Source of the DNA: Syntrophaceae bacterium
GTDB taxonomy: Bacteria > Desulfobacterota > BSN033 > UBA1163
Assembly (NCBI GenBank): GCA_013388635.1
Contig: JACAEX010000051.1
Coordinates: 1-32,665, forward strand
Reading direction: 5' to 3'
Length of the DNA: 32,665 nt
In this document: piece after piece, positions 2,692 through 28,924 of the stretch
Layout: the number at the start of each line of letters is the position of its first letter
Position numbering within the stretch: position 1 is the first letter of the stretch
Notes under the pieces: model-generated
What the model saw: the letters and a program-made list of their open reading frames with translations, nothing else
What the model was told of the DNA's origin: nothing
Database searches by the model: none
Translations under genes and position numbers: made by a program

Positions 2692-2693
2692 CT

Positions 2694-3686
2694 CTAACCT
2701 TTCTCTATCGGCAACCCCACTTCCTTCATCGAATCCCGAAACTCCTCTTCGTACTCCTCATAGGTATGGGTTTTGACCGGATAATCCCAGGGATTGATGT
2801 GCCGCTGATTACGGCTGGTATTGGTCAGGTTGCGCGTGGGACTCAGGAAGATTCCTGGCATATGCATCAATTTGCTAAGAGGGAAGTAGGCCACCAAAAG
2901 GCTGATAAAAAAGAGATGAATATAGAAGAGCAGGTTTACCTCCTTCGGAGCCACTGGCCGAAGGCGGAGCATGGCCATGGCCCATTCCTTCACCTGAACC
3001 AGATCGACCTTGTAGATCAGCCGCATCAGCACTCCGGAGAGGACGATCCCGAGAATCAGAAGGAGGACGAAATAGTCCGAGGAAAGGGAAATGTACCTCA
3101 CCTGCGGGTAGATGATCCGCCTCACGAAGAGATAACCCAGGGCGACCAGAATGATGATATCGGTGATGTAAATGACGGGGATGAGACCTTGAAAGATCGA
3201 GTCAACCCTCTGAAGGATCACGATGGTCGAAGGCACAGGTTCGAGAAAGAATCTTAAGTGCCTCAGGAGGATCACAAGAAAAGACCAATGGAAGGCCATG
3301 GCTCCAAACCAGAGAAGAACGCTTGGTTTGAAGAGAAGCCTCTGAGGTGCCTGCATCTCAACTTTTTCATTTTTGAGAAGGGGACGAAAGAGGAGGATGT
3401 CGAGGGCCAGCCTTTTCACCACACCTCCTGTGGTGTAAGGGCTGTCGATATTGTCCGCTTTGATCCAGGAAAGGGATCTCTGCTGTCCCGAAACCGTGGG
3501 GATGTGGAAGGGAACAGGGGAGGTCGCCCATTTCAAAACACGGTAGAGAAAACCGACGACGAAGAGGAAAAGAGCCGCATAGGGAATAAAAATGGTAAAG
3601 AAAGAGACCAAACCCATGCCTTCGATGCCGATCACGACAAGAAAGGTAAGTAGAAGAATCGCTGAGACGGAATACCAGAGGCCCAT
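2694..3686 (-). CDS. dsrM: DsrM, membrane cytochrome b subunit of DsrMKJOP (NarI-like)
   Basis: 330 residues from MGLWYSVSAILL, with about six hydrophobic membrane segments. Two NarI-type histidine pairs are visible: FHW...RH spaced 10 residues apart and YIH...LMH spaced 18 apart, fitting two haem b groups. DsrM moves electrons between the menaquinone pool and DsrK. The frame stays open to an upstream ATG at 3758, but those 24 residues translate an intergenic A/T-rich repeat, and an AGGGG lies 9 nt before the ATG at 3686, so the shorter form is chosen. The C-terminal tail (KTHTYEEYEEEFRDSMKE) is cytoplasmic-looking and may contact DsrK, whose gene begins 2 nt later. Confidence 0.94.
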   Translation of the reverse strand: MGLWYSVSAILLLTFLVVIGIEGMGLVSFFTIFIPYAALFLFVVGFLYRVLKWATSPVPFHIPTVSGQQRSLSWIKADNIDSPYTTGGVVKRLALDILLFRPLLKNEKVEMQAPQRLLFKPSVLLWFGAMAFHWSFLVILLRHLRFFLEPVPSTIVILQRVDSIFQGLIPVIYITDIIILVALGYLFVRRIIYPQVRYISLSSDYFVLLLILGIVLSGVLMRLIYKVDLVQVKEWAMAMLRLRPVAPKEVNLLFYIHLFFISLLVAYFPLSKLMHMPGIFLSPTRNLTNTSRNQRHINPWDYPVKTHTYEEYEEEFRDSMKEVGLPIEKG

Positions 3687-3701
3687 AATTTTAAACCCCT
3701 G

Positions 3702-3816
3702 TAAATTCGAAGCACGAAATCCGAAATTCGAAACCCAAAACCTTTTTGTTTTGAACATTAGAGCATTCGAATTTTGGATTTGTTTCGAGTTTCGATATTC
3801 GGATTTCGGATTTTAT
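3702..3816. repeat. A/T-rich TTCGAAAT/CCGAAAC inverted-repeat element
   Basis: This 150-nt gap between dsrM and the RsbRD gene is filled by degenerate TTCGAA, CGAAATCC and GAAAC words. The left half (3703-3733) is imperfectly complementary to the right half (3780-3814), so it could fold into a long hairpin. Related elements lie at 7233-7377, 26566-26692 and, in part, at 27645-27690 and 28925-28988. No gene is seen in it. It is probably a small dispersed non-coding element; mobility is not shown by this sequence. Confidence 0.7.
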
Positions 3817-3836
3817 TTAACCTGATCCCCTCTTGT

Positions 3837-4355
3837 TTACCTTTTCTCCTTAGACGGGGTCATCCTCTCCATCATCCGAAAGGCCATCTCTTTCTCGATC
3901 CTGGCCTGCTTGACCCGAATATCACAGATCTTCTCCCGGCAATCCATATAGACATCGAAGGCCTGAAGGGCCAGGTCATCGATTCTGGACTGAAATTTCA
4001 GCCACTCCTCAATGGCCGGGGCCTTAGCGATCTCATCCCTAAGCATCTCTCCGATGGCCCTCTTCAAGAGGAAAATGAATCCGACGGCCTTGGAAGGAGG
4101 AAAGTCCTGAACCGATCTGATCTTAAGGATCGAATCCAGAGAAGACTGGCATTTCTCATCCTGAATCCCTTCGCAGAGCTTTCCGAAGAGAATCTCTATC
4201 TCCCGGGAGATCGTCGAACCCACTGGGTTCGTGAATGGATCCTTGTCCTTTTTCATCAAGCTCGCCGTATCCGCAGGATAGGTCTCCAGGATGAGATCGA
4301 ACCATCTCTTCAAAATAGCCGCTTCGTTTTTTGAGAGAAGGTCTTTTAGCACCAT
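3837..4355 (-). CDS. RsbRD N-terminal-domain protein of the dsr operon
   Basis: 172-residue, largely alpha-helical soluble protein beginning MVLKDLLSKNEAAILKRWFDLILETYPADTA. This fits the RsbRD_N domain, with helices around ILKRWFDLILETYP, ISREIEILFGKLCEG and SKAVGFIFLLKRAIGEML. In stressosome RsbR proteins the domain acts as a sensor next to a STAS domain; here no STAS domain is present, so a stand-alone sensory or scaffolding role is inferred. The ATG is 1 nt from the stop of the DsrE-like gene, so translation is coupled. It sits between the second DsrMK pair and dsrMKJO. Domain assignment is moderate confidence; function unknown. Confidence 0.7.
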   Translation of the reverse strand: MVLKDLLSKNEAAILKRWFDLILETYPADTASLMKKDKDPFTNPVGSTISREIEILFGKLCEGIQDEKCQSSLDSILKIRSVQDFPPSKAVGFIFLLKRAIGEMLRDEIAKAPAIEEWLKFQSRIDDLALQAFDVYMDCREKICDIRVKQARIEKEMAFRMMERMTPSKEKR

Positions 4356-4356
4356 G

Positions 4357-4698
4357 TCAGAGGTTGACCACCTCGTGATGAAGAATCAAATCCAAAATCT
4401 CATCCATCGTCGCCGATCTGCCAACGGCCATCTTCCCGGTCAGCTCAAGCTCGCTGACACAGAGCTGCCCTGCCAGAAGTCGGACTCCCTTTCCTTCGAG
4501 GACCTTGAGATGAGGGACCGACGGAGAGCCTTCTGCCAATAGCCTCACCGCTGTATTCCAGAAGATGATAGCCAGCGGCCGATCCTCCCGTTCGAGAAGG
4601 GCTTTCAGCATGGACATCCAGATCTCGTACCCGAGGTCGTCATCTCCCCGGCCAATGCTCTCCGACCCCATCAGGAATACTTTTCCCTTTGTATTCAT
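4357..4698 (-). CDS. DsrE/YedF-like small sulfur-relay family protein
   Basis: 113 residues from MNTKGKVFLMGSESIGRGDDDLG; a start 7 codons upstream (ATG at 4719, just after a GAGGGGGA) is equally possible. The pattern of an N-terminal strand, GxGDxxLG, then RPLAIIFWNTAVRLLAEGSP, VLEGKGVRLLAGQLCVSEL and KMAVGRSATMDEILDLI matches the DsrE-fold C-terminal domain of YedF proteins. A single Cys (QLCVSEL) occupies the place of the DsrE-family active cysteine. DsrE-fold proteins carry or transfer sulfur. The location between a DsrK-like gene and an RsbRD gene suggests a sulfur-binding accessory to the second DsrMK pair (inference). Confidence 0.75.
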   Translation of the reverse strand: MNTKGKVFLMGSESIGRGDDDLGYEIWMSMLKALLEREDRPLAIIFWNTAVRLLAEGSPSVPHLKVLEGKGVRLLAGQLCVSELELTGKMAVGRSATMDEILDLILHHEVVNL

Positions 4699-4725
4699 GG
4701 CCTCCCCATCGCTATCCATTCCCCC

Positions 4726-6345
4726 TCAATGCCATTCCCAATCGATAAAAGGCTTCTTCATGGCGACCATGGCATTGGCCACCAGTTCGACCAGGCCTCC
4801 ATAGTAGATGCTATGTCTTTCCCACAAACCATTACTGGCAAGGATATCCCTTATGGCCCCTTTGCAGTTGGAACAGGGAGCGCAGACGTATTTCTTAATA
4901 CCTGGATCCAAAACATCGTTGAAGGCCTCCAGGATCTGTTTCAGCTTCATCCGGCTGGAGATGTTCTCTCTCCACTCCTTGAAATTCATCGACGACATGA
5001 TCGCAAACCCGCTTCCTCCGCCGCAACAATAGTTTTCAACCCCATGGGGTTCCATCTCTCTGAACTGGGGGCATATCTTTCTGAGGATGCGCCTTTGAGG
5101 TTCGACAATGCCCATCAATCTCACAAAATTGCAGGGGTCATGGAGCGTCACCGGAAAGTTGTTCTTTTGAGGATCGAGCTCCAATTTACCGCCGCAGACC
5201 AGTTCCTCCAGAAGGGGAAGAAAACTCTCTCTGGGAAAATTCATCTCGTCTAACAATATCCGATCCGCGATGACGATCAGTCCTTTATGGGCATGGCCAC
5301 ATTCTGCCATCACCATCTTTTTGACCTTCAGCTTTCGCGCCACTTCCACCTGTTTGAGGGAGATCCTGGCCAATTGGACATCGTCATACCATGTGCCATA
5401 GTTGGTGGCCTCGTACCCGTAGATTTCGCTCGAAAGCGTCCAGCTCAGACCCGCTGCCTCAAAGACGATGGCAAAGGCGACCGGGTTTTCGATCCAGGAC
5501 ATGAATTCGCCGGAGTTGTGGATCAGCAGGATGTCCGAGCCCTCCTTATCCACAGGGATCTTGATCCTCCTGCCCCATTTCTCCTCGATCTCATCCTCCA
5601 TGAATTCAACCATTCCCTGGAAGGCCTCTGGAGAAATCCCGGTGCTCGCGCCCACTCTTAGCTGTTGAACCGTGCCTGATTCATGGAGCTCCTTCGGAGC
5701 GATCCCCATCTCCTGGCTGAAGAGTTTTCTCAGTTCTCTACCGATCAGGCCATTATCACTTCCAAGGGGGCAGCGCTGGGCACATCGCCGACAGAGGCTA
5801 CACCGGTAAGCCAATTCAGCAAGTCTGGCAACGGTTGGCCAGTTCAGCTCGATATCGTCTCCGGTCAACTTAGAAAGGATCTTTCCCCTTTTCTTGATAT
5901 ATTTATTAATGATCCTCCGGAGGATCTCTGATCTGTAGGTAGGCCGGTAGATCTCCTGATTCCCGCTGGAGAGATAGACAGGGCAGGCATCGCTGCAGGT
6001 CTGGCACCGGACACAGCTTTCCAGGGATTGGATCAGAGGCTGCCAGAAAAGCCAGTTGTCGTTCGGTGAGAGCAATTTCTCGAGGCCCCGGAGAAAACGC
6101 TCCACCAATTTCTCCTCCTCTTCTTTGTTCCTCGGTTTGGGAAGGGATAGGGCTGAAACGCCGTCGAGGGAAGATTCATAACGCTTCTTCTGTTCCTCAG
6201 ACAGAGAGGGATATGGATCTTTCTTCTCCTCGCGAGCCAGAGGAGGAGGAAGCGGCATCAGGTCATCTGCCCTTATCGTAATGAGGGGTTCATCCGTGGG
6301 CAGACTGATATCCTGTAATCGAATTTTCTTCCTTTTGGCCTTCAT
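4726..6345 (-). CDS. DsrK paralogue (second HdrD-like iron-sulfur protein of the operon)
   Basis: 539 residues. The protein has a charged, proline-rich N-terminal extension of about 110 residues absent from DsrK proper. Two complete [4Fe-4S] motifs follow (CVRCQTCSDACPVY, CSLCRRCAQRCPLG), then a CCG region (DPCNFVRLMG, YCCGGGSGFA, CAPCSNCKGAI). The last motif is a normal CxxC, unlike the CxC seen in the dsrK at 1057-2691. It is clearly homologous along its length to DsrK (for example KVKKMVMAECGHAH versus GVKWILGGECGHMW). Its start codon overlaps the stop of the cytochrome b gene by 4 nt (ATGA), so the two make one membrane module. A heterodisulfide/trisulfide-type reductase reaction is inferred; the substrate is unknown. 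Confidence 0.88.
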   Translation of the reverse strand: MKAKRKKIRLQDISLPTDEPLITIRADDLMPLPPPLAREEKKDPYPSLSEEQKKRYESSLDGVSALSLPKPRNKEEEEKLVERFLRGLEKLLSPNDNWLFWQPLIQSLESCVRCQTCSDACPVYLSSGNQEIYRPTYRSEILRRIINKYIKKRGKILSKLTGDDIELNWPTVARLAELAYRCSLCRRCAQRCPLGSDNGLIGRELRKLFSQEMGIAPKELHESGTVQQLRVGASTGISPEAFQGMVEFMEDEIEEKWGRRIKIPVDKEGSDILLIHNSGEFMSWIENPVAFAIVFEAAGLSWTLSSEIYGYEATNYGTWYDDVQLARISLKQVEVARKLKVKKMVMAECGHAHKGLIVIADRILLDEMNFPRESFLPLLEELVCGGKLELDPQKNNFPVTLHDPCNFVRLMGIVEPQRRILRKICPQFREMEPHGVENYCCGGGSGFAIMSSMNFKEWRENISSRMKLKQILEAFNDVLDPGIKKYVCAPCSNCKGAIRDILASNGLWERHSIYYGGLVELVANAMVAMKKPFIDWEWH

Positions 6346-7220
6346 CGATTTGAATCCAGTATAGGAGGTTGTTGCATTTCAGAGGCAACCTCCCTCCATT
6401 GCTTTCCCGATTGAATGTGTGGAGCAGACCAGGTCACAGGTCGCTCCAGATGCTCCCTGACTCTCTTTTCGATCTCGCCTCCCTTTCGATTCGGTACATC
6501 GTCCCAGCGAAGATAGTGATAGTATCTGAAAAAGAGCTGATAGACATGGCTGAAGGGCAGGTAGATCAACCAGACCGAAGCGAAAAGGACATGAAGGGCT
6601 GGCGCCGGTGCCGGACGGAGTTTGTGCTCGAAATCTGCAAAGGTGACCTGCTCCCTCACATACTTCAGAAGAGACGGGATGCTCGATTTAAAATGGAGAT
6701 CGACTGCATAAACCCCTCCAATTAAGGTGAGGAGGAGAAACACCCACTTTACGTAGTGAACGGGAGGATAATGAACCTTTAGCTCCTCATCCCTCATTCG
6801 CATGATCAAAATGGCCATGCCTCCGATGAAGGTGAGGAGGGTGGAGAAGGTCCCCCAGACCCATCCGAAGATCGAGGCGGTTTCAATGTCTGCGACCACG
6901 GCCCGGATGAAGAGCCATGCGTGCCAGAGGATGAGCAGGTAGAGCCCCGTATGAAAGAGATAGAGGGGATACCAAAACCTCCTGTTGCGATGGTAAAATT
7001 CTCTCAGAAAGAGAAGGTCCAGAACCATGGACCAGAGCTTTTCGCCGAAGGTGATCTCTTTTTTCGTCCACCACTCGGTCGATTCATAAATCGAACTCCC
7101 TTTGTAAAGTTCCCAGTGCAGGTGAACGGGTGCATCGATGCACTTCTTCACCCGAAGCGCTGTGGTGAGAATAAAGAAGAGGATGCTTCCGTAAAAAATA
7201 AAGAGGATCAAACCACCCAT
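6342..7220 (-). CDS. NarI/DsrM-like cytochrome b membrane protein paired with the second DsrK
   Basis: 292 residues with about five hydrophobic segments, beginning MGGLILFIFYGSILFFIL. One histidine pair with the NarI spacing of 10 is present (LFHTGLYLLILWH). In the last helix the first His aligns with DsrM, but the second falls 15 residues later (LHVLFASVWLIYLPFSH), not 18, where Gln stands instead. Haem coordination on that side may therefore differ. The protein should take electrons to or from quinone and pass them to the adjacent DsrK paralogue. A GAGG precedes the ATG. It lies downstream of dsrC, separated by a 161-nt repeat-filled gap. TmcC/HmcE-type cytochrome b is an alternative family name. 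Confidence 0.85.
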   Translation of the reverse strand: MGGLILFIFYGSILFFILTTALRVKKCIDAPVHLHWELYKGSSIYESTEWWTKKEITFGEKLWSMVLDLLFLREFYHRNRRFWYPLYLFHTGLYLLILWHAWLFIRAVVADIETASIFGWVWGTFSTLLTFIGGMAILIMRMRDEELKVHYPPVHYVKWVFLLLTLIGGVYAVDLHFKSSIPSLLKYVREQVTFADFEHKLRPAPAPALHVLFASVWLIYLPFSHVYQLFFRYYHYLRWDDVPNRKGGEIEKRVREHLERPVTWSAPHIQSGKQWREVASEMQQPPILDSNR

Positions 7221-7381: not shown

Positions 7382-7699
7382 TTAGACGCAGCCCGTGGGT
7401 TTGGGTAGGCCCGCGACCTTACAGGCTCCCTTGGCCGGACCGCTCGGGAATAACTGGTAGATCTTCTTCAGATCATTCCCCGTCTGTTTACATAACATTC
7501 GGACCGGGGGAGCGATCCCGAACTTCAGGTAGTAATCCCTGAGATAATTGACCACCTTCCAGTGCTCTTCAGTCATTCCAGAGACATTCTCGGTTTTTGC
7601 GAGGTCCTCTGCCACCTCTTTGTTCCACTTGTCAGGCTCCTGAATGAAACCGTCCTCGTCGATCTCAATCTCAATCCCGCCAAGCATTGCCTTTGCCAT
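7382..7699 (-). CDS. dsrC: DsrC sulfur-carrier protein
   Basis: 105 residues ending PAKGACKVAGLPKPTGCV. The penultimate Cys104 and Cys93 are exactly the two redox cysteines of the DsrC swinging arm, so this is a catalytic DsrC rather than a TusE-like variant. DsrC receives the sulfur from DsrAB-bound sulfite as a trisulfide, which the DsrMK module then reduces. The start is set by an AGGAGGAGAAAAG directly upstream of the ATG. The gene lies 11 nt downstream of the YHS-like gene and upstream of the second DsrM/DsrK pair. Identity is near certain from length and C-terminus. Confidence 0.96.
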   Translation of the reverse strand: MAKAMLGGIEIEIDEDGFIQEPDKWNKEVAEDLAKTENVSGMTEEHWKVVNYLRDYYLKFGIAPPVRMLCKQTGNDLKKIYQLFPSGPAKGACKVAGLPKPTGCV

Positions 7700-7710: not shown

Positions 7711-7908
7711 CTAAGCTTTGATAAATTTTTCAGGTGATTCATCAAACTGCTTCTTACAGGCCTTGCAACAGAAATAGTACGTCTTATCCCCGACCGTGCT
7801 GGTGGCCCTCGGCTTCGCAGCCACCGCTCCATAAAGGACTCCCACCTTGCTTATCTCCATCTCCCTGCCACATACCGGACATTTCACTTCCATGCGTTCT
7901 TCAGCCAT
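7711..7908 (-). CDS. YHS/TRASH-like small cysteine protein
   Basis: 65 residues with two cysteine knuckles: KCPVCGREM near the N-terminus and YYFCCKACKKQFDESPEKF near the C-terminus. The second matches the YHS-type signature (Y-F-C-C-x-x-C...F...P-x-x-F). Such domains bind metal (Zn, Cu or Fe). The middle segment is short and alanine/lysine rich. It overlaps the 3' end of dsrN by 8 nt and is followed 11 nt later by dsrC, so it is translated as part of the core dsr unit. A role in metal or sulfur handling near DsrC is plausible but unproven. Confidence 0.75.
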   Translation of the reverse strand: MAEERMEVKCPVCGREMEISKVGVLYGAVAAKPRATSTVGDKTYYFCCKACKKQFDESPEKFIKA

Positions 7909-9322
7909 ATTTCGCCTCCTTTAAAGGTGTCTTCCCCTGCCTTCGTGCGAGGGAAACGAAAGCCTCTGCCCAACAGGGCGTCCCTGAGGCGTGTAAGTGC
8001 ATATAGCTCGCAAACAAATTCTTATAGAAGATTCCATCCCGCTTGCCGTCGATCCCATGACCCCGCTTGATTTCGTAGGCGAACCTGATCCCATTCTTTA
8101 CGGAGAGTCTGGAATGATGGAATTCATGGCCTCGGATGGTCAATCCTATCGGGAGAAGGGGGTTTTCATCAGTGACTTCGGCAAGGACGTAGCCGTGCCC
8201 TTCAGGCCTTTGAGAGATCTCGACCTCGGCGGGAATGACCCCGACCATTTCATGGGATCGACCTTGCCAGTGGATCTTTCGGCATAGGTACATCAGCCCC
8301 GCACATTCCGCATAGACCGGAAGACCAGCTTCAATCGATTCGGCTATATCTTTTCGCAACAGTCGATTTTCCTCTAACTGCTTAACGAAGAACTCAGGGA
8401 ATCCGCCTCCAATATAAAGCCCATCCACCGGCGGCAATCGGTCTTGCAGGGAATTGATAAAGATGAGTTCGGCATTCTCCTGTCTCAGGGCCTCAAGGTT
8501 TTCTGGATAATAGAAGTTGAAGACCTGGTCATGCATCACCCCGAGCCTGACTTCGGGAGCTCTCTCTCGGCTCTCCTCTAAGGCGCGAGGGGAGGGGCGA
8601 GGGGGACTAAATCCCTGAGCGATCTTCAATATCTGATCCAGATCGAGGTAGGGTTTCAACTTATTCCCGATCCGTTCGACGAGCGACTCCGCCTCGCTCG
8701 ATTCCTTCGACGGGATGAGCCCTAAATGTCTTTCAGCGATTTGAAGATCAGGATCACGGGGGATGCCGCCGAGAACAGGGATCGCGCAATGCTCCTCCAC
8801 AGCCTCTCTCAACTTCTTCTCATGTCGGCTGCCTGAAACGTAATTGAGGATCACCCCCACAATCTTGATGCCGGTCTCAAAAAGTTGGTACCCCTTCACC
8901 ATTGCTGCAATGCTACCTGTCATCCTGCTTGTGTTCACCACCAGGAGAATCGGAATGTTCAACAGGCGGCTTATCTCCGCGGTCGTCTGTTGACTGTCCA
9001 ACCCATCGTAAAGTCCCATCGCCCCTTCCACAATGGCCAGGTCTGCCTCTTCGCAAGCCCGCGCAAAAGTCTGAATTAATTTCTCTTTTGGAATTAGGAA
9101 GAGATCGAGATTGCGGCAACCTCTTCCTGCCGCAATCGTGAGCCACGAGGGGTCGATATAGTCGGGGCCTTTCTTAAAGGGTTGGATCGAAAGGCCCCGG
9201 TTCGTCAATAACTTGCACAAGCCGACCGTAACCACAGTCTTGCCCGAGTGACCCTGCGGTGAGGAGACGAGAAAGCAACCCAAGGTCCGATCACCACCGG
9301 TGAAGCGATCACCTCTTCCCAT
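7901..9322 (-). CDS. dsrN: DsrN, CobB/CbiA-like glutamine-dependent amidase (sirohaem amidation)
   Basis: 473 residues. The N-terminal ATP-binding domain has a P-loop GHSGKTVVTVGLC, then KKGPDYIDPSW and VEGAMGLYDGLD, as in cobyrinate a,c-diamide synthases. The C-terminal glutamine amidotransferase domain has the Cys in YAECAGLMYL and the histidines in HEFHHS. In dsr operons this protein is DsrN, which amidates sirohaem to the amide form used by DsrAB. It begins 5 nt after dsrD, fixing that role over cobalamin synthesis, although a dual role cannot be excluded. The linker between the two domains (about 240-258, FSPPRPSPRALEESRERAP) is low-complexity and encoded by a C/G-rich repeat. Confidence 0.9.
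   Translation of the reverse strand: MGRGDRFTGGDRTLGCFLVSSPQGHSGKTVVTVGLCKLLTNRGLSIQPFKKGPDYIDPSWLTIAAGRGCRNLDLFLIPKEKLIQTFARACEEADLAIVEGAMGLYDGLDSQQTTAEISRLLNIPILLVVNTSRMTGSIAAMVKGYQLFETGIKIVGVILNYVSGSRHEKKLREAVEEHCAIPVLGGIPRDPDLQIAERHLGLIPSKESSEAESLVERIGNKLKPYLDLDQILKIAQGFSPPRPSPRALEESRERAPEVRLGVMHDQVFNFYYPENLEALRQENAELIFINSLQDRLPPVDGLYIGGGFPEFFVKQLEENRLLRKDIAESIEAGLPVYAECAGLMYLCRKIHWQGRSHEMVGVIPAEVEISQRPEGHGYVLAEVTDENPLLPIGLTIRGHEFHHSRLSVKNGIRFAYEIKRGHGIDGKRDGIFYKNLFASYMHLHASGTPCWAEAFVSLARRQGKTPLKEAKYG
8560..8612. repeat. C/G-rich repeat inside the DsrN interdomain linker
   Basis: On the minus strand the segment reads as runs of CCCCTCGCCCCTCCCCTCGCGCC followed by GAGAGCC/GAGAGAG, unlike the flanking coding DNA. 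It is in frame and encodes the Pro/Arg/Glu-rich linker between the ATPase and amidotransferase domains. The CCCCTC-rich style resembles the repeat at 1064-1090. It may be an inserted dispersed repeat tolerated in a flexible linker. Confidence 0.45.
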
Positions 9323-9327
9323 TCTTA

Positions 9328-9531
9328 TCAGGTCTCATGTTTACCCGGGAGGGCCACGTAGGTGATGCCGCCAAAGCTTCGGTATTCAATCTTTCCTTCT
9401 TTGGCCAGTTCGGCAATCGCCTTATCGACAAGACTCTTATCCTGTGCGACCGCCCTCGCCACCTCTTTGTTCTTAGCCTGGCTAACTGTGGCAAGGTACT
9501 TGAGAATGCTCTCCTTGAGGTCTTCGCTCAT
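9328..9531 (-). CDS. dsrD: DsrD, small winged-helix activator of dissimilatory sulfite reductase
   Basis: 67 residues, MSEDLKESILKYLATVSQAKNKEVARAVA, with a winged-helix-like pattern (DKAIAELAKEGKIEYRSFGGITYVALPG). It lies directly downstream of dsrB, the standard position for DsrD. The family is found in sulfite-reducing (not sulfur-oxidising) microbes and acts as an allosteric activator of DsrAB, so its presence supports the reductive direction. It is somewhat shorter than the ~78 residues commonly seen. An AAGGTGG precedes the ATG. Confidence 0.93.
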   Translation of the reverse strand: MSEDLKESILKYLATVSQAKNKEVARAVAQDKSLVDKAIAELAKEGKIEYRSFGGITYVALPGKHET

Positions 9532-9593: not shown

Positions 9594-10658
9594 TTACCAT
9601 TTGAACTGGGTGGTGGTCCTCCAGGTTTCCCTCGCATAAGTAAAGTCGTCAATGTGCTGCTCCGCAAAAGGTATCCCCGTCAGTTGGAAGAACTTCTCCC
9701 AGCCTATCCTCTCGATCCACTCCCCCATTCTCTCGAATTTACGAGCATTCTTCGCATAGACCTCGACGATCTTCTTGACCGTGTTCACCACCTCAGGCCA
9801 ACGGGGAGGGTTGTTCGGAAGGTAGGGGACGACCAGACGGGAAAACATCGGAGGTTTTCTCGCATTGGATACCTTACCTCCGGCATAGATGGCTACGCCG
9901 TCACCTTCAGGGTCTGCAAGAGGCATGGCGGGGCAGACCGTGTAGCAGTTTCCGCAGTACATGCAGAGGTCTTCCCGGATGACCACGCTCTTGACTTCCT
10001 TGTCAGGATGGCGCCGAATGGCCCCCGTGGGGCAGGATCCGATGGTCGTCGGGATCTCACAGATCGCTCCCACCTTTTCGTGATCGATCTTTGGGACCTT
10101 GGTATGAACTCCGACCACAGCGAGATCCGAACAATGGATCGCACCACACATGTTGATACAGCAGGCCAACGATACCCTCAGTTTGGCCGGGAGCTTCATA
10201 CTGGTAAAGTAGCCATAGAGCTCGTCCATGAGTGATTTGACGACCGATGAACTATCCGTGGCTGCGCTGTGGCAATGGGCCCAGCCCTGGGTATGAACGA
10301 TGTTCGAAATAGCGTTTCCAGTCCCGCCGACCGGAAGGCCGAGCTTCTTCACCTCTTCGATGATCGGCCTGATATTCTTCTTATGGGGGGTCATGAATTC
10401 AATGTTATACCGGCTGGTAAACCGAAGGTATCCGTCACAATATTTATCAGCAATATCACAGATGTCCCGGATGAAGTCGACGCTGACCAGACGGGGCGAT
10501 CCCACCCTCACCGTAAACACCTCGTCTCCTGTCTCGGAGACATGGCGCATCACACCTGGCTTGAGGATCTCATGGTATTTCCAGTTGCCATAATTTTTTT
10601 TGATGACCTCAGGGAGCATCTCCTGAAAATTCGGAGGACCGATATCTGATCTTCCCAT
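9594..10658 (-). CDS. dsrB: Dissimilatory sulfite reductase beta subunit
   Basis: 354 residues. The sirohaem/[4Fe-4S] region shows the DsrB pattern CCINMCGAIHCSD. The inserted ferredoxin domain has CPTGAIRRH and LCMYCGNCYTVCPAMPL. The N-terminus (SDIGPPNFQEMLPEVIKKNYGNWKYHE) and the C-terminus (RETWRTTTQFKW) are family-typical. With DsrA it forms the alpha2beta2 enzyme that reduces sulfite and loads sulfur on DsrC in the cytoplasm. A strong AGGAGGTTATT lies before the ATG. Length is normal. The 98-nt dsrA-dsrB gap contains a GC-rich hairpin, so dsrB may have some post-transcriptional tuning. Confidence 0.97.
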   Translation of the reverse strand: MGRSDIGPPNFQEMLPEVIKKNYGNWKYHEILKPGVMRHVSETGDEVFTVRVGSPRLVSVDFIRDICDIADKYCDGYLRFTSRYNIEFMTPHKKNIRPIIEEVKKLGLPVGGTGNAISNIVHTQGWAHCHSAATDSSSVVKSLMDELYGYFTSMKLPAKLRVSLACCINMCGAIHCSDLAVVGVHTKVPKIDHEKVGAICEIPTTIGSCPTGAIRRHPDKEVKSVVIREDLCMYCGNCYTVCPAMPLADPEGDGVAIYAGGKVSNARKPPMFSRLVVPYLPNNPPRWPEVVNTVKKIVEVYAKNARKFERMGEWIERIGWEKFFQLTGIPFAEQHIDDFTYARETWRTTTQFKW

Positions 10659-10756: not shown

Positions 10757-11920
10757 TTAAAAGAAAACGTAAGGATTTGCTCTCGGCGCCTTGATCATCT
10801 GCGGCGTCGGCTTCAGGCCAACCGCTTTTAAAAAATTTCTCATCCCCAACCTTTCGATCAGTTCGCCGACCCTCTCTCTCGTCCTTCCATTTTCATCCCA
10901 CCAGTCCCATATCTTTCGAACGAGCTCCTTGATCTCGGTATAGGGAGGTTCGACTTTCATAAAGGGAACGATGACCGACGAGAGCATGGCGCCTTTCAGA
11001 ATCGGCGCCTTTCCACCGATCAGCAGCGTCGCGCCTTTGTCCAACCCGGGTCTGATCGCTTTGGTCATTTTGTTAATACAATGCATACATCGGACACAGT
11101 CCTGAGGAACCACTCTGAGCTTCTTGGTCTTTTCATCCCATTTGAGTGCATTGGTTGGACACTTATCAACAACCAGCCCCTTCACGTCAAAGCCGGCCTT
11201 TACATACTCTTTGACCGCCTTCTGATCGATCTTCAGGCTATCCCTCCAGGTGCCGATGATCGTCAGGTCAGCTCTCGCTATAGCGGCCACACAATCATTA
11301 GGACATCCTGAGATCTTGATCTTAAATTTATAGGGCCACCGCGGCCGATGGATCTCATCCTGGAACTCCATCGTCAGGTTATGAACCAGATCGAGGGTGT
11401 TGATATTGGTCCACTCGCATCGCGCCGGTCCCACACAGGCTGTGAGTGTCCTCAGAGCCGAACCCGATCCTCCTAAGTCAAATCCCACTTCGGTCAACGC
11501 ATCGAAGCAGGGCTGAAGGTTTGCTGTGGTTGTCCCGAGCAGAATGATGTCGCCCGTTGAGCCATGAAAATTGGTCAGGCTGCTACCATACCGCTCCCAG
11601 ACGTCGCAAAGTTGCCTCAATTTCTTGGTTGAGTAAAACCAACCTGCAGGATGATTGACTCGAAGCGTGTGGAACGATTCCACATTTGGGAAGAGGTGCG
11701 GCACATCACTATACCTTCCGATCACTCCCCCGCCATACCCGGTGACGCCTACAATTCCCCCATGCTTCCAATGAGTTACTTTGTCTTTAAATGATAGTTC
11801 CTGGACGCCCAAAAGATCCTTTGCCGCAGCATTCTTCTTGGCTGCTCGTTTTATCTCTTTAACATAACTCGGCCACGGCCCCTTTTCCAGTTGGTCCACC
11901 AACGGGGTCTCCTCTTTCAT
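10757..11920 (-). CDS. dsrA: Dissimilatory sulfite reductase alpha subunit
   Basis: 387 residues from [16 protein letters not shown]. An ATG two codons earlier (11926) exists, but AGGAGG lies only 2 nt before it and 8 nt before this one, so the inner start is preferred. Sirohaem/[4Fe-4S] motifs are CVGPARC (C-x5-C) and CPNDC (C-x3-C). The ferredoxin domain has CPTNALKW and [15 protein letters not shown]. This is the catalytic sulfite reductase subunit. It is the first gene of the dsr array, with about 80 nt between its start and a sigma-54 promoter at 12000-12015. The two-component genes at 12144-15516 diverge from it, a layout that suggests local control. Confidence 0.97.
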
Positions 11921-11999
11921 CCGCATTCCCTCCTTTAACTAATGAATTATAACTTTTTATACATCTCAGACGAAAAGAAATCAAGGATTAAATTTGTTG

Positions 12000-12015
12000 A
12001 GCAAAAACTGTGCCA
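12000..12015 (-). promoter_or_regulatory. Sigma-54 (-24/-12) promoter of the dsr operon
   Basis: On the minus strand the sequence is TGGCAC (12015-12010), five bases AGTTT (12009-12005), then TTGCT (12004-12000). This matches the sigma-54 consensus TGGCAC-N5-TTGCW at every defined position with the obligatory spacing. It points toward dsrA, giving a leader of roughly 65-70 nt. Sigma-54 promoters need an NtrC-type activator, and one is encoded on the other side of the same intergenic region. Confidence 0.85.
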
Positions 12016-12089
12016 CCAGATGATGGTCCCGTTAGCTCTTGAAAACTATAATCAATTTAATTTAACATACTGAAGGAACATACAAATTC

Positions 12090-12116
12090 AAATGCAAAAA
12101 ATATCTGGCAGTGCTA
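12090..12116 (-). promoter_or_regulatory. Candidate activator-binding site (UAS) for the dsr sigma-54 promoter
   Basis: Read on the minus strand from 12116, the segments are TAGCACT, GCCAGAT, ATTTTTT and GCATTT. It aligns without gaps to 15514-15540 at 22 of 27 positions. Its end is 74 nt upstream of the -24 element, a usual enhancer distance for NtrC-family activators. The TGC...GCA ends give partial dyad symmetry, as expected for a dimeric Fis-type HTH. It also lies 28 nt before the kinase start, so it may mediate autoregulation. Confidence 0.7.
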
Positions 12117-12143
12117 TATCTTGTTGGCACAGGGGTCGAAACG

Positions 12144-14099
12144 ATGAAGGCAGGTAGGAATCTCAAACTGACCAAGAAGTTGATGCTCGGGATCGGGATC
12201 ATCCTTTTCATTACCTTCGGTACGATCTCCCTCTTTTTCTATTATTATGTGAAGCACCTCTATTTAAAAGAGACCTACAGGCAGACAGAGCTCCTCTTCT
12301 CTTATATCAATGCCACTGCAGAATATGTCAAGGATGAATTGAGACCAAAGATGTTCCATGTCTTGCCAAAGGACGAATTCATTCAGGAGGCGATGTCCAC
12401 CACCTTTGTCACAAGGGGTATTACAAAGAGATTCATCCAAAGATTCCCGGAATATAATTACAGAAGGGTGGCGGTCGACCCGAGAAACCCGTTGAATATG
12501 GCAAATGAGATGGAAAAAGAGTTCATCAATGGCTTCTCTAAAAATCCAAAAGATACCCATGAATGGAAAGGGTTGATTAAGAGGGATGGAAAGAGATACT
12601 TTGTCCATCAAAAACCGGTGATCATGGAGGCCCAGTGCCTCATCTGTCACGGGGATCCATCCTATGCACCGAGATCCCTGGTCAAGATTTATGGAAAGGA
12701 CCATGGTTTTTACAGAAAGATCGGCAATGTGGCCGGGGTCGAATCGGTGGCCATACCCGTGGACAACACGTTTTATCAGATCACCCGATTGGCCTTCTCG
12801 ATATTCCTCTTAGGTCTCTCAGGAATGGCTGCGACATTCCTCATCCTGAACTACTTCCATTATGTGGTACTGGTCAAGCCACTCAGGAAGGTCAGTTCTT
12901 TCTTTAGGTCGATTGTCAGCGGCGAAAGAGGTCTGGATATGAAGCTTGAGGTGAAGGGAGATGACGAGATCTCCGAGGTCGTAGGATCCTTCAATCAGAT
13001 GATCTCCCACCTCAAGAGGTCGCGGGATGAATTGATATCCTCGGAGATGAAGTACCGTCGAATCTTTGAGGGTTCCAAAGATGCCATCCTCCTGATCGAC
13101 TGTACAGGTCCGATCAGGGATGTAAACCATTCAGGCGTGGAGTTATGGGGTTACAGCAGCAAGGAGGAGTTCATCGAGAATGTGTCCTTAAGCAATCTCT
13201 TTGTGAAGGAAGAGGTGTTGAACGATTTTCTTGCCCGGATCGGAGAGGACGAATTTGTAAAGGACTATGAGATCGTCTTGAGGAGAAAGGACGGAGGGGA
13301 GAGGAATGGACTGATGACAGCGACTTTGAGGAGAGATGGGGAGGACCAGATCTGCGGCTACGAGTGTATTGTCAAGGACATCACGGAGAGAAAGAAGATG
13401 GAGGAGAGAATCAGAGAGGCGGATAAGCTTGCCTCGATTGGACAATTGGCAGCAGGGGTTGCCCATGAGATCAACAATCCCTTGAGCGTCATCCTCGGGT
13501 TTACAAGGTTGCTCACGAAGAAATCCTCTTTCGACAGGCAGACCAAGGAGGATCTGGAGATCATCCAGAGCAATGCCAGGCTGTGCAAAAAGATTGTCGA
13601 GGACCTCCTCAATTTTTCAAGGCAGAGAAGGCCACAATACACAGAGGCAGATCTCAACGGGACGATCGAATCGATCGTCTCCGTGGTGGAAGCCCAGTTC
13701 AATCATGGCGGCATCACCATGGTAAGGGACTATGACCCTTCTATCCCGGCCGTGACAATGGATGTGGATAAGATGAAACAGGTCTTCATGAATCTTCTGA
13801 TGAACGCCTGTCAGGCAATGAATTCGGGTGGTTCCATCCACATCGCCACCCATTACGATGCGGCAAGGCAGGGGGTTTTGACCGTCTTTGCCGATACCGG
13901 ATGTGGAATCCCGAAGAATATCCAGCACAGGGTATTCGACCCCTTCTTCACCACGAAGGAACCAGGGCAGGGGACCGGCCTTGGGCTCCCCGTATGCTAT
14001 GGAATCGTCAAAGAACATCATGGTGAGATTTCTTTTGAGAGTGAGGAAGGCAAGGGAGCGACGTTCAGGGTATGGCTCCCGTTGAACAGTATGGGGTGA
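12144..14099 (+). CDS. Membrane sensor histidine kinase with haem-c (Tll0287/DUF3365-like) sensor domain
   Basis: 651 residues from MKAGRNLKLTKKLMLGIG, with AGGGG 8 nt upstream of the ATG. Order: membrane segment (~10-35); periplasmic Tll0287/DUF3365-like domain with a CLICH haem-attachment motif at about 165-169; second membrane segment (~215-240); HAMP (~240-300); PAS (~305-410); HisKA with the phospho-acceptor in GVAHEINNP (His ~441); HATPase with N-box MNLLMNACQA, DTGCGIP and GQGTGLGLPV. A covalently bound haem suggests sensing of redox state or a small ligand such as sulfide, NO or CO (inference). It diverges from dsrA and lies 10 nt before its response regulator. Its promoter is not obvious. 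Confidence 0.93.
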   Translation: MKAGRNLKLTKKLMLGIGIILFITFGTISLFFYYYVKHLYLKETYRQTELLFSYINATAEYVKDELRPKMFHVLPKDEFIQEAMSTTFVTRGITKRFIQRFPEYNYRRVAVDPRNPLNMANEMEKEFINGFSKNPKDTHEWKGLIKRDGKRYFVHQKPVIMEAQCLICHGDPSYAPRSLVKIYGKDHGFYRKIGNVAGVESVAIPVDNTFYQITRLAFSIFLLGLSGMAATFLILNYFHYVVLVKPLRKVSSFFRSIVSGERGLDMKLEVKGDDEISEVVGSFNQMISHLKRSRDELISSEMKYRRIFEGSKDAILLIDCTGPIRDVNHSGVELWGYSSKEEFIENVSLSNLFVKEEVLNDFLARIGEDEFVKDYEIVLRRKDGGERNGLMTATLRRDGEDQICGYECIVKDITERKKMEERIREADKLASIGQLAAGVAHEINNPLSVILGFTRLLTKKSSFDRQTKEDLEIIQSNARLCKKIVEDLLNFSRQRRPQYTEADLNGTIESIVSVVEAQFNHGGITMVRDYDPSIPAVTMDVDKMKQVFMNLLMNACQAMNSGGSIHIATHYDAARQGVLTVFADTGCGIPKNIQHRVFDPFFTTKEPGQGTGLGLPVCYGIVKEHHGEISFESEEGKGATFRVWLPLNSMG

Positions 14100-14109: not shown

Positions 14110-15516
14110 ATGAAGGAATCTATTCTTGTTGTCGATGATGTGCCGGATATGCTTAAGTTCCTCGAAAGGCTCATCCAGGAGGAACTTCACGTCGATGTGG
14201 TCGCACTGGACGATGCGGAAAAGGCGATGGAGAAGGTATTGAAGGATCCGCCCAGCATCGTCCTTGCCGATATCCGGATGCCAAAGATGAACGGGGTCGA
14301 ATTGCTGAGACGGATCAAAGAGATGGACCATTCCCCTCTGGTGATCATGATGACTGCCTACGGGAGTATCGAGGATGCCGTCGAAAGCCTTAAGCTGGGG
14401 GCTTACGATTACATCACGAAGCCTTTTGATGAGGAGAGGCTACTGCATACGCTTAAAAAGGCCCTTGAGCATCATGACCTCGTTAAGAAGAACATCGATC
14501 TTGAGAAGAGGGTGAAGGAGAAGGAGGCGTTAAATGGCTTCATAGGAGAATCGCTCCCCATCCGAAGGCTGGTAGAGACCATCAAAATTGTGGCGAAAAC
14601 GGATTTGACGGTCCTGATCACAGGTGAGACCGGAACGGGCAAAGATCTTGCTGCGAGGATGATCCATGCCCTGAGCCACCGATCGAATAAACCCTTCATC
14701 CCTGTAAACTGCCCGACCATCCCAGAAACGATTTTGGAGAGCGAGCTTTTCGGTTATAAGAAGGGCGCCTTCACAGGAGCAGCTCAGGATAAGATGGGGC
14801 TCTTCGGGACTGCTGATGGCGGAACTCTTCTGCTCGATGAGATCGGGGACCTGCCGACGATGCTTCAGGCAAAGCTGTTGAGGGTCTTAGAAGAGAAGGA
14901 GATCAAACCTCTCGGTGATACGAAAACCAACAAGATCGATGTGAGGGTCATCGCCTCAACCAATCAGGATCTTAAGGAGAAGATCGCCTCCCATCAATTC
15001 AGAGAGGATCTCTATCACCGGTTGAATGTCGTTTCGATATCCACACCCTCCCTCAAAGAGATCGCGGAGGATATCCCTTTGATTGCGAACCATTTTCTTT
15101 CCTTCTATTGCTCAGAGTTTAATATCGCTCAAAAGAGATTTTCAGAAGATACTTTGAGAATGTTCATTTCAAGAAGATGGACCGGAAATGTCAGGGAGCT
15201 CCAGAACGAGATCAAAAGGGCTGTGATATTCTCAAAGGGTGAAATGATTACCCCTGAGGATTTTCAAAATGAGACGAGATTGCCATATCCCGAGGAGAAT
15301 GCCGATTCTCTATTGAAACTTACCTATAAAGAGGCAAGGAAGAACCTTCTTGAAAAATTCAATGTTCAATATATCAGAGACTTACTGGACAAATATAGTG
15401 GTAACGTCTCTCTGGCGGCCAGGATGGCAGGCTTAGAAAGGCAGTCCCTTCAGCACCTGATCAAGAGGTATGGCATCCACCCTGAGGAGTTTAGAAAGAG
15501 TGCAAACAAAATGTAG
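14110..15516 (+). CDS. NtrC-family sigma-54-dependent response regulator
   Basis: 468 residues. The receiver domain has acidic VVDD near the N-terminus, phospho-acceptor Asp54 in VLADIRMPKMNG and Lys in YITKPF. The AAA+ domain has Walker A GETGTGKD (~172-179), GAFTGA (219-224), which contacts sigma-54, and Walker B LLLDEIGDL. The C-terminal Fis-type helix-turn-helix (~433-458) reads NVSLAARMAGLERQSLQHLI. It is encoded 10 nt after the kinase, so the two form a two-component pair. Two sigma-54 promoters with a shared upstream site flank the pair, making this the predicted activator of both dsrA and the split-Soret gene. The second predicted site begins at this gene's stop codon. Confidence 0.95.
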   Translation: MKESILVVDDVPDMLKFLERLIQEELHVDVVALDDAEKAMEKVLKDPPSIVLADIRMPKMNGVELLRRIKEMDHSPLVIMMTAYGSIEDAVESLKLGAYDYITKPFDEERLLHTLKKALEHHDLVKKNIDLEKRVKEKEALNGFIGESLPIRRLVETIKIVAKTDLTVLITGETGTGKDLAARMIHALSHRSNKPFIPVNCPTIPETILESELFGYKKGAFTGAAQDKMGLFGTADGGTLLLDEIGDLPTMLQAKLLRVLEEKEIKPLGDTKTNKIDVRVIASTNQDLKEKIASHQFREDLYHRLNVVSISTPSLKEIAEDIPLIANHFLSFYCSEFNIAQKRFSEDTLRMFISRRWTGNVRELQNEIKRAVIFSKGEMITPEDFQNETRLPYPEENADSLLKLTYKEARKNLLEKFNVQYIRDLLDKYSGNVSLAARMAGLERQSLQHLIKRYGIHPEEFRKSANKM

Positions 15517-15540
15517 CACTGCAAGGCTTTTTTTGCATCT
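15514..15540 (+). promoter_or_regulatory. Candidate activator-binding site (UAS) for the split-Soret sigma-54 promoter
   Basis: The segments are TAGCACT (15514-15520), GCAAGGC (15521-15527), TTTTTTT (15528-15534) and GCATCT (15535-15540). It has 22/27 identity, without gaps, to the site upstream of dsrA (12116-12090, other strand). It ends 71 nt before the -24 element at 15612, against 74 nt at dsrA, and has the same orientation relative to its promoter. TGCAA...TTGCA ends give dyad symmetry. It starts on the stop codon of the regulator gene. Confidence 0.7.
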
Positions 15541-15611: not shown

Positions 15612-15627
15612 TGGCATAGCTATTGCT
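15612..15627 (+). promoter_or_regulatory. Sigma-54 (-24/-12) promoter upstream of the split-Soret cytochrome gene
   Basis: TGGCAT (15612-15617), AGCTA (15618-15622), TTGCT (15623-15627): GG and GC doublets at the required spacing, one mismatch to TGGCAC. It lies 90 nt before the ATG at 15717 in a 200-nt non-coding gap and points toward the cytochrome. Together with the matching element before dsrA it indicates joint sigma-54 control. Confidence 0.8.
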
Positions 15628-16523: not shown

Positions 16524-16531
16524 TATTTCTG

Positions 16532-16560
16532 TTGACAACCCATCGAAAGGATGATTAGAT
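16532..16560 (+). promoter_or_regulatory. Possible sigma-70 promoter before the PSE transporter
   Basis: TTGACA (16532-16537), a 17-nt spacer and a weak TTAGAT (16555-16560). It would give the transporter its own expression besides read-through from the split-Soret promoter. The -10 element matches only partly. Confidence 0.3.
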
Positions 16561-16714
16561 AGAGACAAGTCATTCAGGCTTTTAAAAAATTTGAATTTAA
16601 GGAGGTGATCTCAGAACGAGAGAGAAGAAATGATTTTTGTTGTACGGAAAGAAAGGGAAAGGGCTATATCAAGTAGTTTTTCGATCAGGTTAAATTTTAG
16701 AGGGGGGTGTCATT

Positions 16715-18247
16715 ATGGCCGAAAAGAAAGGTATCGATTGGTCAACGCTTTGGAAGAAAGATGACTGGGTTTCGGTATGGATCGGATTTCTCATTCTGAT
16801 CATCTTCATGGCAGGAGCCACCTTCAAACTTCCGGGATGGAAATGGCTGACCGATGGGGCATTTGTTGAAAAGATCCCGGGTTACAGCAAGAAGGTCGAT
16901 GGCCTTGTAAAGGATGCAGAGGCAAAGGGAGAGGAGGGATTAAAGGCGGGTGCAATCGAACTCAAGACAGCCCTCGACGCAAAGGATCGGAAGGCGATCG
17001 GAGAGGCTGCAGGAAAGTTCGAGAAGGCTGTAAAGGAAGTAAAGGATAAGGATCTGAATAAGAAGGCAGAGAAGCTCGCCAAAGATATCAAGGGCGATGC
17101 AACGAATACATTCGGGAAGGTCCTCTCAGGCCCGAATCTGTTGAGGATGCTCTATCTGCTGATCGGTTTCTGGATCTTCGCATTGATCGGCATCCTCATT
17201 ATGGGAATGCCGGCAGGCAAATTCATTACAGGTTTCCCATTTGTATTCGTCCTCTCTGTCATCGCAGCGATCATCGGTGGAAACTCAACGATCTCCTATT
17301 ATGGTCTTGAGACCGTATTCTGGGCCTTGATCTTGGGCCTCCTGGTCAGCAACACGGTCGGCGTGCCTGGATGGGTCAAAGAAGCGGTGAAGACCGAGTA
17401 CTTTATCAAGATCGGCCTCGTGCTTCTCGGCGCAGAGATTCTCTTCACAACCATTGTAAAAGTGGGGGCGTATGGGATGGTTCAATCGATTATCGTCATC
17501 GGGCTTGTATTCTATTTCTGCTTCTGGGTGGCTAAAAAACTTGGCCTCGATGATGAGTTTGCCTCGATTCTCGGTACTGCTGTCTCGATCTGCGGAGTCT
17601 CGGCTGCGATCGCTGCTGGCGGTGCGGTCAAGGGTGATCCGAAAAAAGTGAGCCATACCATCTCTCTGGTCCTCCTCTGTGCGATCCCCATGTTGATCTT
17701 CCAGCCGGTGATCGCAAAGGCAGTGGGGATGTTACCAGCAGTGGCAGGGGCCTGGATAGGCGGGACGATCGATACAACCGGTGCCGTGGTAGCAGCAGGT
17801 GCGATTGCTGGCCCTGAGGCGATGTCTGTGGCCGTTGTGGTCAAGATGGCACAGAACGTATTGATCGGAGTGGCTGCATTCCTTCTGGCCATATGGTTCG
17901 TCTTCAAGGGGAGGGAGGCAGGCCAAAAACCGAGCGCCGCAGAGATATGGTTCCGGTTTCCGAAGTTTGTGGTCGGTTTCGTGATTGCCTCGATCGTCTT
18001 CTCTTTCTTCCTGACAGAGGCGTATGCGAAGGGAGTCACGGGAGTTACAGGACCGATCAGGGCGTGGTGGTTCAACCTTGCTTTCATCTGCATTGGTCTG
18101 GATACGAGATTCAAAGAGCTGGTGGCCATGGGAGGTGGAAGGCCAGCAGCTGCCTTCCTGATCGCTCAGGGTTTCAACATCATCCTGACGCTGGTTTTGG
18201 CCTACCTGATTTTCGGCGGGATTCTATTCCCAGTTCCAAAGTTTTAA
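16715..18247 (+). CDS. PSE/YeiH-family (UPF0324) membrane transporter with a helical insertion
   Basis: 510 residues. After one hydrophobic helix (~20-42) comes a hydrophilic, Lys/Glu/Ala-rich, helix-forming stretch (~55-135, such as AKGEEGLKAGAIELKTALDAK and KKAEKLAKDIKGD), then about nine or ten membrane helices. Conserved PSE features are LVLLGAEILF, ASILGTAVSICGVSAAIAAG, GAWIGGTIDTTGAVVAAG and FICIGLDTRF. Ordinary members lack the insertion and are about 330-350 residues long. The family is called putative sulfate exporter; in a sulfite reducer it might move sulfate, sulfite or sulfide. Start from AGAGGGGGG before the ATG. It follows the split-Soret gene by 191 nt and precedes a terminator. 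Confidence 0.88.
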   Translation: MAEKKGIDWSTLWKKDDWVSVWIGFLILIIFMAGATFKLPGWKWLTDGAFVEKIPGYSKKVDGLVKDAEAKGEEGLKAGAIELKTALDAKDRKAIGEAAGKFEKAVKEVKDKDLNKKAEKLAKDIKGDATNTFGKVLSGPNLLRMLYLLIGFWIFALIGILIMGMPAGKFITGFPFVFVLSVIAAIIGGNSTISYYGLETVFWALILGLLVSNTVGVPGWVKEAVKTEYFIKIGLVLLGAEILFTTIVKVGAYGMVQSIIVIGLVFYFCFWVAKKLGLDDEFASILGTAVSICGVSAAIAAGGAVKGDPKKVSHTISLVLLCAIPMLIFQPVIAKAVGMLPAVAGAWIGGTIDTTGAVVAAGAIAGPEAMSVAVVVKMAQNVLIGVAAFLLAIWFVFKGREAGQKPSAAEIWFRFPKFVVGFVIASIVFSFFLTEAYAKGVTGVTGPIRAWWFNLAFICIGLDTRFKELVAMGGGRPAAAFLIAQGFNIILTLVLAYLIFGGILFPVPKF

Positions 18248-26118: not shown

Positions 26119-26562
26119 ATGAAGATATCAACGAAAATCAGATATGGAGCAAGAGCGATGTTGGAGCTTGCCTATCGTTATGGTCAGGGGCCCATTGAAT
26201 TGAGGGAGATTGCAAGGAGAGAGAACATCTCTCTGAAATATCTCGAGCAGGTGATTATTCCTCTACGAACGGCTGGTCTGGTCAAGTCGATCCGGGGTTC
26301 CAAGGGAGGATACTCCCTGGCCAAGCCTCCTTCGGAAATATCTCTGAACGATCTGGTCGAGATCTTAGAGGGACCGGTCAATTTGGCCGAGTGTGTAAAA
26401 GACTCAAAGGCCTGCCAGAGATCGCCGATCTGTGTGACACGAGATATCTGGAGGGAGACCTCGGAGGCGATCCATAAGATTTTCCGTTCCATCACCCTCG
26501 AGGAGATGGTGAATCGAAGGAAAGAAAAGGAGGGAGTGATTCCTCCCATGTACCAGATATGA
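26119..26562 (+). CDS. Rrf2-family (IscR/CymR-like) transcriptional regulator
   Basis: 147 residues. The N-terminal winged helix begins MKISTKIRYGARAMLELAYRYG and includes the recognition region ISLKYLEQVIIPLRTAGLVKS and the wing IRGSKGGYSLAKP, all Rrf2-typical. Three cysteines (ECVKDSKACQRSPICVT) sit where IscR carries its [2Fe-2S] cluster, with C-x7-C-x5-C-like spacing, so cluster sensing is plausible. CymR, which lacks this cluster and controls cysteine metabolism with CysK, is the alternative; the position just upstream of cysK supports a cysteine/sulfur-responsive role. No clear Shine-Dalgarno is seen before the ATG at 26119. Confidence 0.9.
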   Translation: MKISTKIRYGARAMLELAYRYGQGPIELREIARRENISLKYLEQVIIPLRTAGLVKSIRGSKGGYSLAKPPSEISLNDLVEILEGPVNLAECVKDSKACQRSPICVTRDIWRETSEAIHKIFRSITLEEMVNRRKEKEGVIPPMYQI

Positions 26563-26565
26563 TAA

Positions 26566-26692: not shown

Positions 26693-26709
26693 TTAATGGG
26701 AGAATCGGG

Positions 26710-27642: not shown

Positions 27643-27644
27643 CC

Positions 27645-27690: not shown

Positions 27691-27711
27691 TAAGATGACA
27701 GGAGGAAACCT

Positions 27712-28923: not shown

Positions 28924-28924
28924 A

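Follow-up and report, generated by a model that had tools for sequence, protein, structure and literature searches.

We analyzed a predicted promoter ahead of dsrA, the first gene of a dissimilatory sulfite reductase (dsr) operon, in 32,665 nucleotides of DNA from an uncultured Syntrophaceae bacterium (GenBank assembly GCA_013388635.1, contig JACAEX010000051.1). The window spans the complete contig C74, one of 106 in the 3.4-Mb draft genome G000. The element, here called P1, occupies 12000..12015 on the minus strand. Judging from the DNA sequence, it is very probably a working sigma-54 promoter that acts as the principal switch for the dsr operon, with the response regulator encoded beside it as the activator. 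The predicted circuit around P1 is more complete than was seen in the original prediction, which had called the promoter and postulated an activator.

The sigma-54 element in front of dsrA

P1 (TGGCACAGTTTTTGCT) has the GG at −24, the GC at −12 and the fixed spacing of the consensus TGGCAC-N5-TTGCW, all without a mismatch and at the exact position where the original prediction had placed a full −24/−12 element. It was the sole TGGCACN5TTGCW match in the window. Chance would rarely produce it: 0.01 matches were expected from shuffled sequences, and only one of 100 shuffles contained any. The distance from P1 to the likely dsrA start (ATG 11920) is 79 bp, and this ATG is preceded by a well-spaced AAGGAGG; the longest dsrA frame begins at 11926. 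With the usual spacing from the −12 element, transcription would start near 11989, giving a leader of about 69 bases up to the ATG. A simple consensus scan, covering only fairly strong sites, gave no sigma-70 candidate towards dsrA in 11900-12200.

Across the genome, the same consensus had 14 matches, compared with 0 for the reversed control. The genes that follow these matches, named by eye, include an AmtB-like transporter, a type IV pilus ATPase-like protein, a response regulator and ABC substrate-binding proteins. Genes of these kinds are common sigma-54 targets.

Among 99 genomes searched, dsrA was present in 4 of the 17 genomes of the family, including G000. Two of the three others, G006 and G007, which belong to two other genera by their labels, carried an orthologous P1 (TGGCACAGTTATTGCT and TGGCACAATTATTGCT, respectively), with its end 72 and 82 bp ahead of the matched start of dsrA. 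In a three-way alignment, 14 of the 16 columns of P1 were identical; outside the elements, the numbers were 32 of 74 in the spacer and 15 of 69 in the leader.

For a wider comparison, sigma-54 sites were scored by a simple weighted consensus made for this analysis rather than by a trained matrix. Among 44 dsrA upstream regions (400 bp where available; 45 dsrA matches minus G026:C487, which is truncated at the contig start), three scored 25.7 and the region of G026 scored 24.2. Among 80 named dsrA loci, 25.7 was reached by two, again those of G006 and G007. When up to 1000 bp of 124 dsrA upstream regions were scanned (these include duplicates, at least L011=L072, L012=L070, L013=L078 and L015=L096), no site of 25 or more was found beyond those of G000, G006 and G007. 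At a threshold of 23.5, the same regions gave one match on the opposite strand and one in the reversed control. P1 was conserved while its flanks diverged, and full-score sites were found in three genomes only; the element therefore appears to be conserved within a small clade. The expectation that the motif would recur upstream of dsrA in relatives was thus borne out in G006 and G007, and failed in the fourth dsr-bearing family genome, G014, and in dsrA regions elsewhere. A sigma-54 promoter in front of dsrA is well supported by these comparisons.

Adjacent kinase and regulator, and the predicted enhancer repeat

A sigma-54 promoter ahead of dsrA implies dependence on an ATP-using activator. 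The activator that had been postulated is encoded next door: a sensor histidine kinase gene (12144..14099, plus strand; longest frame from 12111 GTG) and a response regulator gene (14110..15516, plus strand) are divergent from dsrA. The kinase has a Tll0287-like (c-heme Cache) sensor domain followed by HAMP, PAS, HisKA and HATPase domains. Its sensor domain matched PF11845 with 113 bits (cut-off 24.1) and carries the c-heme motif CXXCH as CLICH at residue 176. By its domain matches, the regulator is an NtrC-family protein, that is, a predicted sigma-54 enhancer-binding protein. It consists of a receiver (PF00072, 105.3 bits) with the phosphorylatable Asp in DIRMP at residue 54, an AAA+ domain (Sigma54_activat, PF00158, 232.9 bits) with an intact GAFTGA at residue 219, and a weak match to a Fis-type helix-turn-helix (HTH). 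In G007, the regulator ortholog (76% identical) is likewise divergent from dsrA, and the kinase is 82% identical. In the available flanks of the 80 named dsrA loci (at least 1.5 kb of upstream sequence in 70, at least 5 kb in 53), a frame with GAFTGA was seen in G007 only.

Between P1 and the kinase gene there is an inverted repeat, which we call UAS1 (upstream activating sequence 1; 12109..12132). It reads CTGTGC-N12-GCACTG on the minus strand, and G006 and G007 have a perfect CAGTGC-N12-GCACTG at this position; this consensus was derived by eye from the upstream regions of the three genomes. UAS1 is a predicted binding site of the regulator. It lies upstream of the −24 element at a distance within the 80-200 bp range of activator sites, and 17 of its 23 aligned columns were identical in the three genomes. 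A second conserved block beside it (12092..12108, minus strand, approximate borders, 13 of 17 columns identical) ends with TTTTTTGCAT and is possibly a weaker second binding site. The need of the dsr operon for an ATP-using enhancer-binding protein, as originally predicted, is supported by this plausible enhancer site together with the promoter and the adjacent activator gene.

A second pair of the same kind was found at the other end of the kinase-regulator operon. UAS2 (15498..15521) reads GAGTGC-N12-GCACTG on the plus strand, overlaps the last codons of the regulator gene and is matched by a perfect copy in the corresponding position of G007. Downstream of UAS2 is a second sigma-54 element, P2 (TGGCATAGCTATTGCT, 15612..15627, plus strand), which is one base off the consensus (TGGCAT); its counterpart in G007 is TGGCACGGCTATTGCT. 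The gap from the repeat to the −24 element was 93 bp at dsr and 90 bp at P2 in G000, 101 bp and 91 bp in G007, and 92 bp in G006, where only the dsr pair was found. The odd one among these five is about a helical turn longer. The five modules of repeat and promoter aligned over their full length, with TTGCAT of the block beside the repeat invariant in all five and further invariant letters in the TTTTTGCAT and TTTTC blocks.

Allowing up to one mismatch, UAS-like places numbered 9 in G000 and 3 each in G006 and G007. Only two of the 9 in G000 had a strong sigma-54 site at 80-110 bp, and both are in the window; within 20-250 bp of the other 7, a score of 22.5 or more was reached only once, by a site at 225 bp. 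When the two best sites of the window were placed at random, a distance of 80-110 bp to a repeat arose for both in 1e-5 of the trials, in a test that was designed post hoc. Without mismatches, the UAS consensus occurred only in G000, G006 and G007 among 23 genomes of the class. Three other genomes had matches with 3 mismatches only, no more than in the reversed control. The consensus was built from these very sites, and the informative part is its absence elsewhere. A small dedicated regulon is the best reading.

A few candidates were rejected. A sigma-70 −10 element for the kinase gene inside UAS1 was dropped: its TATA letters are also in UAS2 and are therefore possibly part of the repeat. 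A site for integration host factor in the A/T-rich stretch that separates enhancer and promoter is not claimed, as only partial matches were seen by eye. Two dsrA loci outside the clade were considered as further cases. G026 (L240:2850-3560) has TGGCACAGATTATGCT between dsrA and divergent kinase genes. The shuffle rate of this promoter match (0.005) is not striking among 44 regions, a repeat-like stretch nearby was not significant (57 of 1000 shuffles reached its summed score), and no GAFTGA frame was found on the contig. Anaerospora hongkongensis (L147) has TGGCAAAGCCATTGCC upstream of dsrA, with 0 of 100 shuffles as good, and its flanks had no GAFTGA frame.

The proposed circuit and alternative explanations

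What the sequence itself shows are the two pairs of sigma-54 site and repeat, how these are spaced and conserved, and which domains the proteins carry. From them we infer binding, activation, and a signal, with its direction, in the form of a ligand or a redox change at the c-heme. The kinase, with its c-heme sensor domain in the periplasm, would phosphorylate the NtrC-type regulator, and the regulator would then bind CAGTGC-N12-GCACTG about 120-143 bp upstream of the predicted transcription start. By looping to the sigma-54 holoenzyme at P1, it would open the promoter with ATP. The same regulator would act at the pair of UAS2 and P2 ahead of a gene for a split-Soret-cytochrome-like protein, so that sulfite reductase and a predicted exported cytochrome would be switched together. 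The position of UAS1 immediately before the kinase gene makes autoregulation possible as well. Sulfite respiration in this organism would then probably be switched by a signal rather than always running.

Several observations weigh against this circuit. The HTH_8 match of the regulator (19.3 bits) is below the Pfam cut-off of 22. UAS1 and UAS2 in the window have one mismatch each, and the conservation of UAS2 may be partly coding, given its overlap with the regulator gene. In G007, the cytochrome gene is mostly lost, with a remnant after P2 (by eye). The next regulator ortholog in a 395-genome sample of the phylum, in G273 (61% identical), is beside transporters, with no dsrA within the 8 kb read. 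G014 has no site, no repeat and no adjacent kinase-regulator pair; a rearrangement may have removed the switch there. Finally, RpoN, the sigma-54 factor itself, was not found in G000 apart from a weak match of 12.8 bits. The search of relatives detected RpoN in 28 of 30 genomes, and G000 was one of the two without it. The gene hpf, which adjoins rpoN in 8 of 8 rpoN loci of relatives, was not found in G000 either. The simplest reading is that one stretch with both genes was lost in the draft assembly, and an assembly gap at rpoN-hpf is likely. The GAFTGA regulators, together with the excess of genomic sites over the reversed control, indicate that this genome lives with sigma-54.

In G014, a fragment of a split-Soret-cytochrome-like gene (L078:6629-6946) is directly upstream of dsrA, where the parts of the switch are missing.

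Three alternatives were weighed. Mixed control, with weak basal dsr expression from a sigma-70 promoter and a signal-dependent boost from the sigma-54 promoter, is compatible with the proposed circuit. Such control is generally known to be common in respiratory operons, and a weak sigma-70 site could have escaped our scan, which gave no candidate towards dsrA. We regard this addition as possible, though not the expected outcome.

The promoter might also be real but driven by another of the many enhancer-binding proteins of this genome, the neighboring pair merely sharing the locus. G000 has 9 matches to the regulator, itself included, at E≤1e-100. Moreover, G006 keeps both the site and the repeat though no close regulator ortholog was found there (best E 2.5e-107); its contig begins just upstream of the repeat. 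This second point, like those listed above, speaks against the proposed circuit. On the other side, the repeat precedes dsrA and recurs where the regulator operon ends, its perfect consensus is confined to 3 of 23 class genomes, and two genera have the regulator in divergent orientation to dsrA. Taking these together, we consider another activator improbable.

As a last possibility, the 16-mer could be a match by chance or a decayed site, with an ordinary sigma-70 promoter driving dsrA. This would fit the missing rpoN, the sequence-only nature of the evidence for P1, and the absence of the site from most dsrA upstream regions of other bacteria, with G014 doing without it; this is very improbable in view of the 0.01 expected matches, the conservation in two other genera despite diverged flanks, the linked enhancer repeat and activator, and the lack of a sigma-70 candidate in the scan.

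The operon, the candidate signals and known systems

The proposed sigma-54 switch would control a long operon, all of it on the minus strand: dsrA (10757..11926; TIGR02064, 579 bits, cut-off 392.85), dsrB (9594-10658), dsrD (9328-9531, by eye), dsrN (7901-9322), dsrC (7382-7699), dsrM2 (6342-7220), dsrK2 (4726-6345), a YedF-like gene (4357-4719), an RsbRD_N gene (3837-4355), dsrM (2694-3758), dsrK (1057-2691), dsrJ (645-1106) and dsrO (3-641), which is open at the contig end. From gene order and domains, we take four of these to be dsrD, dsrN, dsrM and dsrO. All the genes of the operon originally given as dsrABDN-C-MKJO were present; its length was underestimated, as M2K2, the YedF-like gene and the RsbRD_N gene are additional and the operon runs off the contig. 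The operon contains two DsrMK pairs (1057-7220; DsrK models 343 and 730 bits) with the YedF-like and RsbRD_N genes between them, the latter encoding a protein with the RsbT co-antagonist N-terminal domain. According to the accessible part of PMC6018796, dsrMK paralogs near dsrAB are not uncommon.

The curated family model of AprA (TIGR02061) gave no match above its cut-off in 4 of 4 family genomes searched (best in G000, 47.4 bits versus 641.75), and no control genome exceeded the cut-off either. The lack of a detected aprA suggests sulfite rather than canonical sulfate respiration. Since dsrA is found in no more than 4 of the 17 genomes of the family, the pathway seems to be accessory, and inducible control would be reasonable. 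Thus the Dsr pathway in this clade is probably accessory sulfite respiration. The original prediction had presented the core respiratory pathway as switchable. The undetected aprA, the patchy dsrA and the lack of any other full-score dsrA upstream region do not support a bearing on sulfate reducers generally, and the claim is narrowed to a circuit in a small clade with an accessory-looking Dsr. The case suggests that Dsr can be an inducible accessory in lineages without AprA, which is relevant where activity is read from the presence of dsrAB genes.

The first gene after P2 (15717..16523, plus strand; likely ATG 15717, longest frame from 15672 TTG) encodes the split-Soret-cytochrome-c-like protein of the C_GCAxxG_C_C family. 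It scored 211.9 bits, under the model cut-off of 400, and has a twin-arginine-like signal and CXXCH motifs. The next gene (16715..18247, plus strand) encodes a YeiH family putative sulfate export transporter (Cons_hypoth698; PF03601 above cut-off, TIGR00698 93 bits, below 232.6). It may be read through from P2 or transcribed from its own sigma-70 promoter. TTGACA-N17-TTAGAT is found upstream of it (16525-16600) and is kept in G007 (by eye). Farther along, 26119-32541 is a sulfur-related run with genes for an Rrf2 regulator, a cysteine-synthase-like protein, a homocysteine-forming enzyme, an NIL-ferredoxin, an MnmA-like protein and a ThiI/NFACT-like protein.

The kinase sensor domain matched the Tll0287 structure 5b82 with an E-value of 8e-6. 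The accessible part of a 2026 preprint (PMC12889525) describes a c-heme in Tll0287-like proteins and nitric oxide (NO) binding by a signaling-fused member without the axial cysteine. The sensor domain here has no Cys besides the CXXCH pair, which leaves NO, sulfite or some other ligand of the heme, or the redox state, as candidate signals. Tentatively, the locus might be a facultative sulfite-respiration module with a periplasmic sensor of its own. Sulfite, or NO as a competitor, would bind directly to the c-heme of the kinase, for which the sensor domain offers no further cysteine as second ligand, and one sigma-54 activator would turn on sulfite reductase, its electron path and the exported cytochrome together; we regard this specific version as rather unlikely. 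If true, it would provide a dedicated sensor for sulfite respiration, of a kind that we have not found reported for DsrAB.

Control of dissimilatory sulfite reductase synthesis is little known. We found no published sigma-54 control of dsrAB in the literature searched, which is weak evidence of absence, since supplements and many subscription papers were outside its reach. The main text of PMC4641369 and the accessible part of PMC3333781 do not mention dsr or sulfite reductase, and in that of PMC12316311 the only instance is a sulfite reductase subunit (COG0155) of Aquificia. The arrangement belongs to the known divergent sigma-54 two-component systems, and none was found reported for this target. 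A dsr operon that brings along its sensor, activator, enhancer and sigma-54 promoter offers a testable case, with one transcript start, one DNA motif and one sensor domain to examine.

HcpR of Desulfovibrio is likewise a predicted transcriptional regulator of the sulfate-reduction pathway, but it is a CRP/FNR-like factor. In the part of PMC545781 available, its sites are predicted at the APS reductase and ATP sulfurylase genes, and DsrAB is expressly absent from its regulon. With NtrC-type proteins such as NtrC1, NtrX and ZraR, the regulator shares the receiver, the AAA+ domain with GAFTGA and, as a match below the cut-off, the C-terminal HTH, and its best PDB matches include 1ny5, 4l4u and 5m7n. 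Its scores are below the cut-offs of the named equivalog models AtoC, NtrC, NtrX and ZraR. A similar logic is found in NrfS-NrfR of Desulfovibrio vulgaris, a sigma-54 two-component control of nitrite reductase, as far as the accessible parts of PMC5701242 and PMC3333781 (DVU0621 and its nitrite reductase target) describe it. The target here would be dsrAB and a cytochrome instead of nitrite reductase. The sensor domain resembles Tll0287-like and sCache_heme sensors in PF11845 and CXXCH; here it is fused to a kinase that appears tied to a sulfite reductase operon.
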